IMG/VR virus record: IMGVR_UViG_3300025949_000032
Location: 1 to 50,559 of that record
DNA length: 50,559 nucleotides
Reading direction: 5' to 3' (one strand)
Source of the DNA: a virus
In this document: in pieces, positions 43,417 to 50,559 of the stretch
Numbering within the stretch: the stretch's first letter is position 1
Layout: each line of letters opens with the position of its first letter
Notes under the pieces: model-generated
What the model was told of the DNA's origin: nothing
Databases searched by the model: none
Seen by the model: only the letters and a program-made list of their open reading frames with translations
Made by a program: the position numbers and the translations under genes

Positions 43417-46398
43417 TTAAGGGGTGCGCAAAGAGGTGATCAGCCGGCCGGCAAAACGGACGTTGAGCACCCCTCCGGCCGTTCCTGGAGCGATGGCCAC
43501 CGCCACCATGTCGTAGTACAGGTCCTTGGTGGGTGGAGAAGGATCCGCCGACAGACCCAGCAACTCCCAGATGCGCTTTCCGAAGTTGCCCAGTCCTGCG
43601 GCGCCGCCAATGACCTGGGGTGCATACACTTCTGTCCAATTCGGGCGGGCAGTATCGAGCGAGAGTGAGGAGACCAGCAGGCTGTCAGAACCGGGGACCA
43701 CGGGTCCGCCACCATTGGGTAGCCGCACTCCAATGACATACAGAGATCCGCTGGGATTCGCGTCGTGTGCGATCTCGAGCTCGGATATACGCGCAGCCGC
43801 AGATACCCGGCCAATACGGTAGACCTGCCCCGGCGGATCTGTGGGGCCCATCACAATCTGGCCAAACCCTTCGTCACACCGATAGTTGTTGACCGTGATC
43901 GCAGACTCTTCGTACTGGATCGTTGGAGATTTCACCACTGTAATGGGTGGATCGACCGGCGTTGCTGGCGGTGCATTTCCGGTGGACAACGATAGATTGA
44001 CGGTGGTCACACCGGGTTGAACGATAGCTCCCGGCAGCGGGGTCTGACCGATCACGGTCCCCTTGATCGCCGGCCCCAATGGATTGGGATCATCTTGGTC
44101 TCCAAACTGTGGGTTTAGATAAACCCCGTCAATCAAGGCTTCGGCGTCATCGCGGGTCTTGCCGATAGCAGAGGGCACCGCTATTCCGCCGTCGATAATG
44201 GCGATCTGCGCCTGTGAGGATTCCGTGCTGTTGTTCGCAACCTGGAAGTTCACAACAGTTATGACCCCCGGCACCGACGCGATACCGGTCACACTTTCTC
44301 CGGCAACCGTTCTTCCACTGGGCAACGACGTCAGAGCGGTGACCGTGAGCGGCGAATCGCCCTGGAGATCTTGGAAGTAGCTGGCGACCGACAGGGAAAC
44401 CTGCTGATTCAATGGAAACAGCAAGTACGGTAGCAATCCGGTCTGTCCCGGCGGCGTGGGCGGGGAATCATTCTCGTAATCCGCAGCCGACCCGATCAGG
44501 TTGCCGAGGGAGACGCTATAGACATCCTTCGTGAAGCTCTGGCGCAGTAGAGAATTCGTCGCGAAAATCGCAACGCCTTCCGCAGTAAAGGTCACACCAT
44601 TGCCTTGGCCGTCCGTGAGATCGGCGATCAGGACATCACCACTGACCACAGGCGTGGAGGATCCGGCGAAGCTCGAACGTCCCCACGTGGCCTTTCCGCC
44701 CGAGGTGAAATTCGAATAGCCCGTCGAATCCACCGCGATCGTCAGATGCGTCGAATCCACGACCGTGCAAGGACCCCATGCACCGTTGATCTGCGTCATG
44801 CCTCCCACATCGAAGACTTCGACCCAGTCTCCCGAGGTTCGACCATGTGAACCGGAGAATGTGATCTGCGCAGGATTGGCCTTGCTGATCGCGGTGATGG
44901 TGTTCAGTACAACGGGAACATACTGCTTACCTGCCGGAGGCGCTTTGAAGACGGCGAGATTCGACACGATCGCCGAATCGCCCGCGCCGCTCGTGACCAA
45001 CTGATGAACGTCGTGAAACGGAAATGTGAGCCCTGTCGCCGACAAGGATGCGGGAGTCGCGGCCGTGACAGCCTGAGTGAAGTGCGCGACGAATCCCGTT
45101 CCAGCCCCTGATTTCAGGTTGGCCGCCGAGGGTGTCGCTGATCCCTTGAGATAGACACCGAGGTGCCAGGTTCCCGTCTGATTGCTGGTAGCGCCGTACG
45201 TGTATCCGTCCGTGTTGGCGCTGGTCAGCGAAGGTCCGGAGGTGAATGAAGGAGCCGCACCGGAAGAAGCCACCGCGACATTGAACAGGTTCGAGTAGGC
45301 AACGGCACCCGAGGAATTGTTCGCTGCCTGGATTAGGCAGTTGTTGAAGGTTCCGACTGCTCCGGCTCCGGGAGTGCCGGTGAGGGAGTTCGATCCATTG
45401 ACCGTGACACCATTGGTCGTGATGGCAGTCACCGCCTGAACCGGATAGGGCGTTACCGTATCGCCGTCCGCCCAGGTCAGAGCGGTCTGCAGAAGCGCGG
45501 TATTGCCGGAGGCGTAGAGGACGGGGGTCAGGGCGTTGTTGCCGACCTTCACCCACTGCCCGGCCGTCAGAGCCGCAGCCGTTGTGATCTGCGTCGATGC
45601 GGAAACGGCCGCTCCGTTGGCGGTGGTGGCAGTTCCTGCGGATCCCAATTGCTTGAGGGTCCCCGTCCAGGGAGCTGTTGCAACGACGCCATTATCGAAC
45701 TTTGCGGTGAGGTCGATCGCACTGATCGCCGCGCCTTGCGTCCACGACTGGTTCGGGATCGCCGTCCCTGTGAACCAGGTCGCGATCTGCGGATCGCCCA
45801 CACTCCCGGCGGTGGTGCCCGTATTCGTCAGGTCGAGACTGCCGACCCGATCGGTTTCCGTACCCCCCGTCGTGTTGACGTAATAGTAGTTGCTCAGTCC
45901 CAGCGCACGGGGATTGACGAGCCCCAATCCGAGCGCTGCCACCTCGAGGTCTGTCGGGCCCCGAGTCAGTGCAAATGCATGTGCTTCGGTTTGAGTCCCA
46001 CGTCCTCCCAACTGCAGGGTATTAATGCCAGGCGGATTGACGATGGCCGCTTTGGAACCCTTGTGGGCCCCGGCCTGCCACAGAATCTGGTTGTTGGGGT
46101 ACGTTAAGAAGGCGCCGACGTACAGGACCCACGCATTGGCACTCGAGGCAGTATCCGCGAGGGCCTGACTGTTCGTCGTAGAATTGGCTTGGACTGCAGC
46201 GCCTTTGCCACCAGCTCCCGTAATGTCATGCCCAACCACCGAACGATTGGTGCTCGTCCCATCATTCAGCCCGATGAATGTCGAGGCCTGCTGAGCAACG
46301 CTCGTCTCGTAAACCCACACACCCAACGCCACGATGCCCGCAGGAAGACTTCCCGAGCTCTTCATGAACTGGGAGGTGCCTGTGAATAGGCGCGGCAT
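43417..46398 (-). CDS. large tail protein with PASTA and Ig-like domains, 993 aa
   Basis: Opens with a lectin-type beta domain (LFTGTSQFMKSSGSLPAGIV, ALGVWVYETSVAQQASTFIG). Middle repeats have the words of bacterial Ig-like folds (NGVTVNGSNSLTGTPGAGAV). A PASTA domain lies around residues 745-810 (VPSAIGKTRDDAEALIDGVY, KGTVIGQTPLPGAIVQPGVT, TVNLSLSTG), normally a peptidoglycan-sensing fold. A C-terminal domain ends KRIWELLGLSADPSPP... RLITSLRTP. Probably a cell-wall- or surface-binding tail protein. TGATG overlap with the gene upstream. Confidence 0.75.
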   Translation of the reverse strand: MPRLFTGTSQFMKSSGSLPAGIVALGVWVYETSVAQQASTFIGLNDGTSTNRSVVGHDITGAGGKGAAVQANSTTNSQALADTASSANAWVLYVGAFLTYPNNQILWQAGAHKGSKAAIVNPPGINTLQLGGRGTQTEAHAFALTRGPTDLEVAALGLGLVNPRALGLSNYYYVNTTGGTETDRVGSLDLTNTGTTAGSVGDPQIATWFTGTAIPNQSWTQGAAISAIDLTAKFDNGVVATAPWTGTLKQLGSAGTATTANGAAVSASTQITTAAALTAGQWVKVGNNALTPVLYASGNTALLQTALTWADGDTVTPYPVQAVTAITTNGVTVNGSNSLTGTPGAGAVGTFNNCLIQAANNSSGAVAYSNLFNVAVASSGAAPSFTSGPSLTSANTDGYTYGATSNQTGTWHLGVYLKGSATPSAANLKSGAGTGFVAHFTQAVTAATPASLSATGLTFPFHDVHQLVTSGAGDSAIVSNLAVFKAPPAGKQYVPVVLNTITAISKANPAQITFSGSHGRTSGDWVEVFDVGGMTQINGAWGPCTVVDSTHLTIAVDSTGYSNFTSGGKATWGRSSFAGSSTPVVSGDVLIADLTDGQGNGVTFTAEGVAIFATNSLLRQSFTKDVYSVSLGNLIGSAADYENDSPPTPPGQTGLLPYLLFPLNQQVSLSVASYFQDLQGDSPLTVTALTSLPSGRTVAGESVTGIASVPGVITVVNFQVANNSTESSQAQIAIIDGGIAVPSAIGKTRDDAEALIDGVYLNPQFGDQDDPNPLGPAIKGTVIGQTPLPGAIVQPGVTTVNLSLSTGNAPPATPVDPPITVVKSPTIQYEESAITVNNYRCDEGFGQIVMGPTDPPGQVYRIGRVSAAARISELEIAHDANPSGSLYVIGVRLPNGGGPVVPGSDSLLVSSLSLDTARPNWTEVYAPQVIGGAAGLGNFGKRIWELLGLSADPSPPTKDLYYDMVAVAIAPGTAGGVLNVRFAGRLITSLRTP

Positions 46399-48975: not shown

Positions 48976-49268
48976 CAGAGTCTCGCGTTGTCCGCGCAGA
49001 TCGCTTGGCAAGTCTCAAGATCGGTCTCGCTGCCTGAGATCTCACCCCACCAGTTGGGAGTGAGCTTGAGGATGCGGTAGCGGGCTGTGGGCGGATTGGC
49101 ATCGAAGATGGCTTCGTGATCGCCGGGGACGAAGCGCTCGATCCGGTATCGGCCACAGGCGGATTCGTGCGTCCACCGGTCGGTTTGGTTCCATACCAGT
49201 TTCGGAGGATCCGACTTTCGCGATCCAGCGTCATGATATTCCTGCTTCAGCAGTGTTGATGTAGTCAT
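48975..49268 (-). CDS. hypothetical replication-region protein, 97 aa
   Basis: Overlaps the P-like gene by 38 bases. A beta-rich middle (HESACGRYRIERFVPGDHEA, YRILKLTPNWWGEISG) and a helical end with Cys (TDLETCQAICADNARL). Function unknown. Position suggests replication or its control. Confidence 0.65.
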   Translation of the reverse strand: MTTSTLLKQEYHDAGSRKSDPPKLVWNQTDRWTHESACGRYRIERFVPGDHEAIFDANPPTARYRILKLTPNWWGEISGSETDLETCQAICADNARL

Positions 49269-49854
49269 TCCAAACCGCCTTCTGGGTTTCGGAAGGAACC
49301 TCGCCGTTGCACTCCAAATCGCGCATGTCGGCGGCCCAGTTATTTTTGGCTTCGATGAGTCTTTTTACGTTGGCGACAAACTTCCCATCCGCGTCGAGAA
49401 GCTTCTCATCGATGCCTATCTGCCGAAGATCCTCGATGCGCGCAGTCAGAAGCTTGTAACTCGCCGGTCGACCGTATCGGGCTGACCGCTGGCAGACCTT
49501 GCGAATCATGTGCCCAAGTAGATGGCGATTTGCAGCCATGTCCCACTTGTTCCATTCGACTTCATCAGGCTTCGGTAGAGCGATTGGCCGGGGCTCGCCT
49601 TCATCAAACTCGTCGCCACCTATTGCACGGCAGAGTTTCGTGAACTCCGGAAGCGAGGGAACATGCGGTTTACCGCTGTAGGCGAGGCGACGAATCCCGC
49701 GATCGATTTGCAAGTCGTTGAGCCGCGCCAACATCCCCACCCACTCCGGGGGAGGCTTCGGGCCGAACTTACGCTCGACGGCATCGCCGCCAAACATTCC
49801 GACCAGGCGACGCCAAACTTCACTGGCGCGCGATTGCAAAGGGGATGGTTCCAT
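49231..49854 (-). CDS. P-like replication protein (helicase loader), 207 aa
   Basis: Directly after the O-like initiator with a 35-base overlap, as O and P in lambda. Sequence style of the P-type family: VWRRLVGMFGGDAVERKFGP, EWVGMLARLNDLQIDRGIRR, PSLPEFTKLCRAI, WDMAANRHLLGHMIRKVCQR. These proteins bring the host DnaB helicase to the phage origin. No Walker motifs, so it is not a DnaC-type ATPase. Confidence 0.78.
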   Translation of the reverse strand: MEPSPLQSRASEVWRRLVGMFGGDAVERKFGPKPPPEWVGMLARLNDLQIDRGIRRLAYSGKPHVPSLPEFTKLCRAIGGDEFDEGEPRPIALPKPDEVEWNKWDMAANRHLLGHMIRKVCQRSARYGRPASYKLLTARIEDLRQIGIDEKLLDADGKFVANVKRLIEAKNNWAADMRDLECNGEVPSETQKAVWNDYINTAEAGIS

Positions 49855-50559
49855 CGTCGTGTTCGATCACTCGTGAATTGTCGGGGCCTTCGAGGGTTCG
49901 CAGGATTCGCTCGCTCGCGGATTCCGCTCGAGGTGGAGGTTTCCACGGCAGCAGGAATGGCTTGCTCGGCCCGAGGAACCGCGAGGCCTGTTGGATGTAC
50001 TCGGTGCCGACCTTCCCGGCCGCTTCCGAATGCGCAGCGTATCGACGGGCACCTGCGATGAACTCCGCAGGGGTATGACCTTCGGCCATCCGCGCCCTTG
50101 CCGCGCTCAGCCCTCCCCTCCAATTCGGGTCTCCGTTGCGTTCGGGATACGCGAGTTTGAAATCGAGGAACCAATCCGGGACTTCCGCTCCACGTGAAAC
50201 CTTCCGTCCCTTGGTGTCGGCGGGCGCCTTGTGCGCGCGTTGACGGTTACTTGGAGGTTCAACTGATGGTTCTATGATGGTTATGGGTGACCCAGGGTCA
50301 GGGGTGCCCTGACTGTGGGTCAGGGGCGGGGGTGACTGTGGGTCAGGGGTGCCCTGACTGTGGGTCAGGGGCGGGGGTGACTGTGGGTCAGGGGTGCCCT
50401 GACCGTCAGTCAGGGGTGACTTTAAGTCGGGGGTGCTTTCTAGTCGGGGGTGAACGGTGTAGGTGTTGCTTCGTCCGGGACGTTCATGACGAGTGATGTG
50501 ACCACTCTTCTCAAGTCGCTCCATCACCCGGGAAACTGATCTCGGAGAAGAGTGGTCAC
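49820..50559 (-). CDS. O-like replication initiator, 5' end cut by window edge
   Basis: No start is reached inside the window: the frame is open to the last base (DHSSPRSVSRVMERLEKSGH...), so the annotated length is partial. The visible N-terminal part is a winged helix-turn-helix (SPRSVSRVMERLEKSGHITR) as in phage O/replisome-organiser proteins. It is followed by a linker of tandem 15-residue repeats (QGTPDPQSPPPLTHS) encoded by the iteron-like DNA repeats, then a C-terminal domain (PDWFLDFKLAYPERNGDPNW, AEFIAGARRYAAHSEAAGKV) of the type that contacts the helicase loader. Confidence 0.82.
   Translation of the reverse strand, partial: DHSSPRSVSRVMERLEKSGHITRHERPGRSNTYTVHPRLESTPDLKSPLTDGQGTPDPQSPPPLTHSQGTPDPQSPPPLTHSQGTPDPGSPITIIEPSVEPPSNRQRAHKAPADTKGRKVSRGAEVPDWFLDFKLAYPERNGDPNWRGGLSAARARMAEGHTPAEFIAGARRYAAHSEAAGKVGTEYIQQASRFLGPSKPFLLPWKPPPRAESASERILRTLEGPDNSRVIEHDDGTIPFAIARQ
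50295..50456. repeat. iteron-like tandem repeats inside the O-like gene (putative ori)
   Basis: A 45-bp unit, made of a 22-bp and a 23-bp half each starting GGGTCAGGGG, is present twice and partly a third time from 50295 to 50406. It is followed by three more degenerate copies with the core GTCAGGGGTG or GTCGGGGGTG to 50456. Within the 22-bp half, TCAGGG-GTG-CCCTGA is a perfect dyad. Lambda places its origin iterons in the same part of the O gene, so this is the best candidate for the phage replication origin. Confidence 0.75.

Follow-up and report, generated by a model that had tools for sequence, protein, structure and literature searches.

Replication origins placed inside the gene of their own initiator have been known for decades from phage lambda, so that one more such origin would by itself be an ordinary finding. 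In lambdoid phages the origin lies inside gene O, and in lambdoid Stx phages two extra iterons add 13 residues to the O protein (PMC7466680). For the Pseudomonas phage MD8, repeats in an O-like gene were read by its authors as a lambda-type origin (PMC8508860). Among plasmids, pSK41 (a RepA_N plasmid) carries four Rep boxes inside rep, the origin-coding part being a linker of the protein. In pPR9, an HTH_36 N-terminal domain together with an origin takes the place of those of pSK41, and the minireplicon replicates and is compatible with pSK41 (reviewed in PMC5703833). At RK2 oriV, TrfA, a Rep protein with two winged helices, binds the 13-mers of the unwinding element as single strand (PMC4081077).

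The locus studied here is found on a linear IMG/VR virus contig of 50,559 bases, analysed in its entirety (the window). The gene content (integrase, Bet/RecT-like annealing protein, head-tail adaptor, tail proteins) looks like that of a temperate tailed phage, and the region gave no blastn match with cultured phages. The order in the O-like gene is a winged helix-turn-helix (wHTH) remnant, a repeat array and a C-terminal domain, and the contig ends ~100 bp past the array:

49820–50557, minus strand: O-like replication initiator gene, 5' end cut by the contig end (PHROG 270, replication initiation protein, E 3.7e-21; PHROG 391, O-like, E 1.2e-6)
~50447–50557, minus strand: C-terminal remnant of a winged-helix DNA-binding domain (SPRSVSRVMERLEKSGHITRHERPGRSNTYTVHP; weak MarR/Crp wHTH matches, PF13730 HTH_36 in intact relatives)
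50284–50453, no strand assigned: iteron array, core TGAC-N5-GTCA-GGGG as read on the plus strand (core-motif scan, TRF)
50241–50282, minus strand: array of AACCRTCA boxes C-terminal to the iterons, a proposed unwinding element (motif match)
49231–49854, minus strand: P-like helicase loader gene; the end of the O-like gene runs into it (PHROG 109, E 1.6e-4)

For the truncated window protein, the MarR/Crp wHTH matches were weak (E 0.15–0.19, below the Pfam cut-off). The intact relatives L012 and L041, which have window-type iterons, matched PF13730 HTH_36. AlphaFold predicted for L012 a confident wHTH (residues 1–80, pLDDT >90), followed by an unstructured iteron-coded linker. In Foldseek, the plasmid initiators 5kbj, 4pt7 and 4pta were among the weak best matches of this wHTH (E about 3e-3). 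The locus thus resembles pSK41 in its origin-coding linker and in the weak fold match of a relative's wHTH. It differs in Pfam family and repeats, and pSK41 has a DnaG-binding C-terminal domain. No RepA_N domain was found among the Pfam matches of the window protein or of the intact relatives. The window initiator would act much as those of RepA_N plasmids do, without being classed with them. The P-like loader had 52% identical relatives in L003 and L004, also beside O-like genes.

The array consists of six exact and two degenerate iteron cores, with start-to-start steps of 22/23/22/23/22/17/17 bp:

50288–50304: exact iteron core 1
50310–50326: exact iteron core 2
50333–50349: exact iteron core 3
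50355–50371: exact iteron core 4
50378–50394: exact iteron core 5
50400–50416: exact iteron core 6
50417–50433: degenerate iteron core, 1 mismatch
50434–50450: degenerate iteron core, 3 mismatches
50307–50396, no strand assigned: exact 45-bp tandem duplication, 50307–50351 being equal to 50352–50396 (direct sequence reading)

TRF reported 45 bp x 2.7 copies at 50295–50416 (score 223), and also 22 bp x 5.5 copies. Allowing up to 2 mismatches, the core was found 14 times in the window, with 4.8 matches expected and a maximum of 11 in 100 shuffles; ten of the 14 fall within the cluster. A preliminary description of this DNA had placed tandem repeats in the O-like gene at 50295–50456, noting internal dyads and a 15-residue protein repeat. 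All three are real, including dyads such as CCCTGAC-TGTGG-GTCAGGG and the repeat TPDPQSPPPLTHSQG, in frame in the minus-strand ORF 49820–50557; the limits of the array shift slightly. Its count of two full, one partial and three degenerate copies gives way to the one above. The recent expansion it suggested holds for the exact 45-bp duplication, in keeping with two iterons (15 residues) having been gained once and recently, but not for the 22/23-bp period, which is general to the class.

Viral contigs were scanned for pairs of iterons by DNA pattern alone, without protein information. The N5 pair was present in 29 viral records and a variant with an N6 spacer in 20. With a wHTH HMM built from loci found by another motif (the boxes described below), a wHTH domain was recognized in the ORF over the iteron pair in 23/29 (N5) and 17/20 (N6) cases. 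The N6 pattern, tried as a negative control, was dropped as such, being a real variant by this latter count. Among the misses, the ORFs of L005, L013, L014, L017, L018 and L048 are open at the end of the examined DNA, and the arrays of L044 and L060 are within 14 and 189 bases of the end, respectively. The arrays map to linker-coding segments, always C-terminal to the wHTH. The pairs occur in both orientations and in all four stop-free frames, encoding unrelated peptides. Window-type iterons at 22/23 bp are also found in the E. coli phage mEp010.

Scanning genomes for the iteron pair gave nine matches, four in wHTH ORFs by HMM, with L042 similar by eye. L037 and L040 (Streptomyces), L038 and L035 were rejected: they have tandem TGAC-N5-GTCA-GGGG in GC-rich contigs (Streptomyces, Chloroflexi) without a wHTH gene and are probably chance matches. 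L037 and L040 have surrounding sequence in common.

In one family with 13 unique sequences, synonymous differences were 0.354 upstream and dropped to 0.015 within the iterons. Synonymously variable codons were 51/64 and 2/27, respectively (Fisher p 8e-11), and amino-acid changes were still present over the iterons. Periodicity was assessed in 65 loci chosen by the box motif (among the matches listed), in the DNA 5' of the boxes and against a null that leaves every protein unchanged. DNA self-similarity peaked at lags of 22 (z 18.1), 17 (10.0), 23 (9.6) and 45 bp (7.5), and dyads with a 5-bp spacer were the most enriched in these box-selected loci (73 vs 17). Because most of the 65 loci have other iterons, for example with TGCA-type half-sites, the 17/22/23-bp spacing rule is general.

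These data bear on two explanations that give the DNA no role of its own. In the first, selection acts on the protein, the Pro/Ser/Thr-rich 15-residue unit being kept as an interaction motif or a flexible linker; recent duplication alone would account for the repeat in the DNA. The repeat is in frame and the linker is predicted to be unstructured in a relative, which is compatible with a linker role. Against this, the peptides that one DNA unit encodes in its two orientations and four frames are unrelated, residues change where synonymous positions stay fixed, and periods that are not multiples of three (22, 23 and 17 bp) exceed a protein-preserving null; we regard this explanation as very improbable. 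Even less credit is due to neutral slippage, in which a functionless tandem repeat grows and decays: one exact 45-bp duplication agrees with it, but the iteron recurs with unrelated C-terminal domains and in different frames, and frozen synonymous sites speak against it as well. As judged by sequence comparison, the repeats are selected as DNA. The proposal that origin iterons double as linker code is strongly supported by the comparison (DNA-level selection, position after the wHTH, a relative's linker modelled as unstructured); that the initiator binds them and that they act as an origin is inferred. The protein repeat as a second selected feature does not stand.

The 15-residue repeat has a simpler origin. 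Each iteron carries TGA on either strand, closing one of three frames per strand. In the window gene, phases 0 and 1 are open; a step of 22 leads from phase 0 to phase 1 and a step of 23 leads back, and two successive steps of 22 would put the gene on a stop. From the genetic code and the coordinates we infer that this closed frame accounts for the 22/23 alternation, the 45-bp period and the 15-residue repeat. The 15-residue unit is made of two different readings of one iteron, PLTHSQG and TPDPQSPP. The same frame walk is seen in L022 (steps 17/22/23, phases 0 and 1), and on the other strand in L024 (steps 23/22, phases 2 and 1). The protein repeat would therefore be a by-product of the 22+23-bp iteron steps and not a second selected feature; the encoded peptide need only remain open and flexible.

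Next to the iterons we found four boxes, which the preliminary description had missed:

50275–50282, minus strand: box AACCATCA
50264–50271, minus strand: box AACCATCA
50252–50259, minus strand: box AACCTCCA
50241–50248, minus strand: box AACCGTCA

They follow each other in steps of 11, 12 and 11 bp, and the window has a single occurrence of the box-pair pattern, against an expectation of 0.00. At 50241–50290, a 40-bp segment reaches 60% AT (top 1.6% of the genome); at a larger scale the AT richness is modest, with 52% over 60 bp (top 8.5%). AACCRTCA was first seen in the iteron loci, with 11 occurrences in 6/31 of them against 0.2 expected; some iteron loci have no exact box after the iterons.

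A scan for three boxes at 10–13 bp gave at least 120 matches. As a scrambled box pattern likewise gave at least 120, raw match counts were rejected as evidence for the boxes. Among the matches listed, 91/119 lay in an ORF with an upstream wHTH, all on the coding strand, a figure that is partly circular because the HMM was built from box loci. For the scrambled pattern, 1/120 of the matches listed lay in a wHTH ORF, and its spacing was mostly 6/12 bp, corresponding to in-frame protein repeats. An independent check of 69 non-redundant box proteins (among the matches listed) assigned 64 to PHROG replication-initiation families and 63 to Pfam HTH_36. Also among the matches listed, the box spacing peaked at 11 bp, within the 10–13 bp set by the pattern; the boxes lay in all three frames (133/73/66), read as EPS, NHQ or TII; and the box segments had 55% AT, compared with 43% for the loci. 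Since the preceding iterons vary from phage to phage, the boxes are the shared element. A sequence search detected no box triplets in the parent genomes of four loci. By sequence reading, the Pseudomonas phages LESphi3 and MD8 have GAACC-type boxes, and the enterobacterial phages mEp460 and ST64B have AACCAGTCA repeats. The latter sequence, and not AACCRTCA, was also seen beside the linker repeats in the enterobacterial phage O genes L183, L185 and L189; it is possibly a host-group variant of the box.

In a few loci, iterons and boxes are seen to behave as one cassette. L003 and L004 have O genes with near-identical C-terminal DNA and unrelated N-terminal halves and linker repeats:

L003, 1134–2057, and L004, 1582–2427: near-identical C-terminal DNA, preceded by unrelated N-terminal halves and linker repeats

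The C-terminal DNA is 99.3% identical and the preceding 200 bp 26.5%. Here the half of the initiator that binds DNA has been swapped in nature. Both loci have a different N-terminal domain, other linker repeats and no boxes. The window has the C-terminal domain common to L003 and L004, but is of the wHTH/TGAC/box type. L005 has the iterons and boxes of the window, then a different C-terminal domain, its own wHTH lying beyond the contig end. The comparison of these four indicates that iterons and boxes go with the N-terminal side, and that the C-terminal domain is swapped independently. The likeness to the chimeric Rep of pPR9 is at this level of domains and modules: a PF13730 N-terminal domain is swapped together with its origin. 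The C-terminal domain of pPR9 is that of pSK41, and pPR9 differs in being a staphylococcal plasmid without a P-like loader.

Very likely, the iteron array is a phage replication origin of the lambda type, placed within the gene of its initiator. Some observations weigh against it: the window's truncated wHTH stays below the Pfam cut-off, its AT-rich stretch is modest at 60 bp, some iteron loci lack an exact box, and L003 and L004, whose C-terminal domain is closely related, have other repeats and no boxes. As in lambda and lambdoid phages, repeats with tandem dyads lie in the middle of the O-like coding sequence, with an adjoining AT-rich region and a neighbouring gene for a P-type loader. Unlike the lambda origin, the window has TGAC-N5-GTCA-GGGG iterons, an alternating 22/23-bp spacing and AACCRTCA boxes instead of a plain A-rich tract. 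MD8 likewise has repeats in an O-like gene followed by a P-like gene, and its GAACC-type boxes stand after the repeats; its iterons are others, with TGCA-type half-sites by sequence reading. RK2 oriV also has iterons beside a short direct-repeat array in an AT-rich stretch; it differs in having 13-mers and not AACCRTCA, and PMC4081077 does not describe it as rep coding sequence.

At this putative origin, each TGAC-N5-GTCA dyad would be occupied by a dimer of the O-like protein's wHTH domain, and an O-some would form from several such dimers spaced at about two helical turns. The adjacent boxes would then melt, as their position, their AT content and the precedent of TrfA (PMC4081077) suggest, and might be held single-stranded by the initiator. 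Judging from gene content, the P-like loader would bring in DnaB. Alternatively, the dyads could serve chiefly as operators, at which the initiator controls its own transcription or some other DNA-binding protein of the phage acts. Their 5-bp spacer does recall operators of dimeric wHTH proteins, and autoregulation is frequent among initiators, plasmid Rep proteins being an example. We consider this improbable, as the dyads lie inside a gene that is always that of an initiator, C-terminal to the wHTH in every case, and adjoin an AT-rich box array, as in the lambda origin (PMC7466680).

The box array is probably the unwinding element of this origin. Going further, we lean slightly towards the AACCRTCA boxes, about one per helical turn, being a second element common to the origins of HTH_36 phage initiators in general. 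As they are kept at the DNA level across unrelated iterons and C-terminal domains, a common factor would read them, either a conserved protein of the host or the initiator fold acting on single-stranded DNA. The iterons would provide the specificity of each phage, and the boxes a shared platform for melting and loading. In a rival view, which we hold possible but give somewhat less weight, the origin is the same, but a conserved loader, primase or architectural protein of the host binds the boxes, which are then not a melting element read by the initiator. That boxes are common to initiators with different iterons and C-terminal domains suits a factor that is not phage-specific. Against this view, the boxes are the AT-richest part of the region (by the AT contents given above for the matches listed), occupy the place of the AT-rich melting region in lambda, and accompany the iterons, being present in the window and L005 and absent from L003 and L004. 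Two-winged-helix Reps like TrfA moreover bind unwinding-element 13-mers single-stranded (PMC4081077).

As far as the open-access literature shows, the widespread TGAC-N5/6-GTCA iteron class, the frame-walk account of 22/23-bp steps and the box array common to many phages are new; for the box array, a limited check of open-access texts found no earlier description, and one may exist. With 22/23-bp frame-walking iterons and AACCRTCA boxes, origins become recognisable by sequence alone in phages without a cultured relative, and confusing repetitive-linker proteins turn into mapped origins. The iteron type appears to follow the N-terminal cassette, and this suggests which replicons can be expected to be compatible. 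What reads the boxes is a testable question raised by these data.

Arrays of iterons or boxes were found at or near breaks of records or retrieved stretches in L005, L014, L017, L044, L060, L076, L106 and L116; such arrays probably fragment phage genome assemblies. The window itself has a perfect 15-nt inverted repeat (50498–50512 / 50545–50559) finishing exactly at the contig end. The O residues it adds (DHSS) fit the wHTH consensus poorly, so it is likely a fold-back or chimeric assembly end. Elsewhere in the window, a 993-aa protein (43417–46398, minus strand) without a PHROG match had a PASTA domain (E 2.7e-5) and, just under the cut-off, a match to E1_FCCH.
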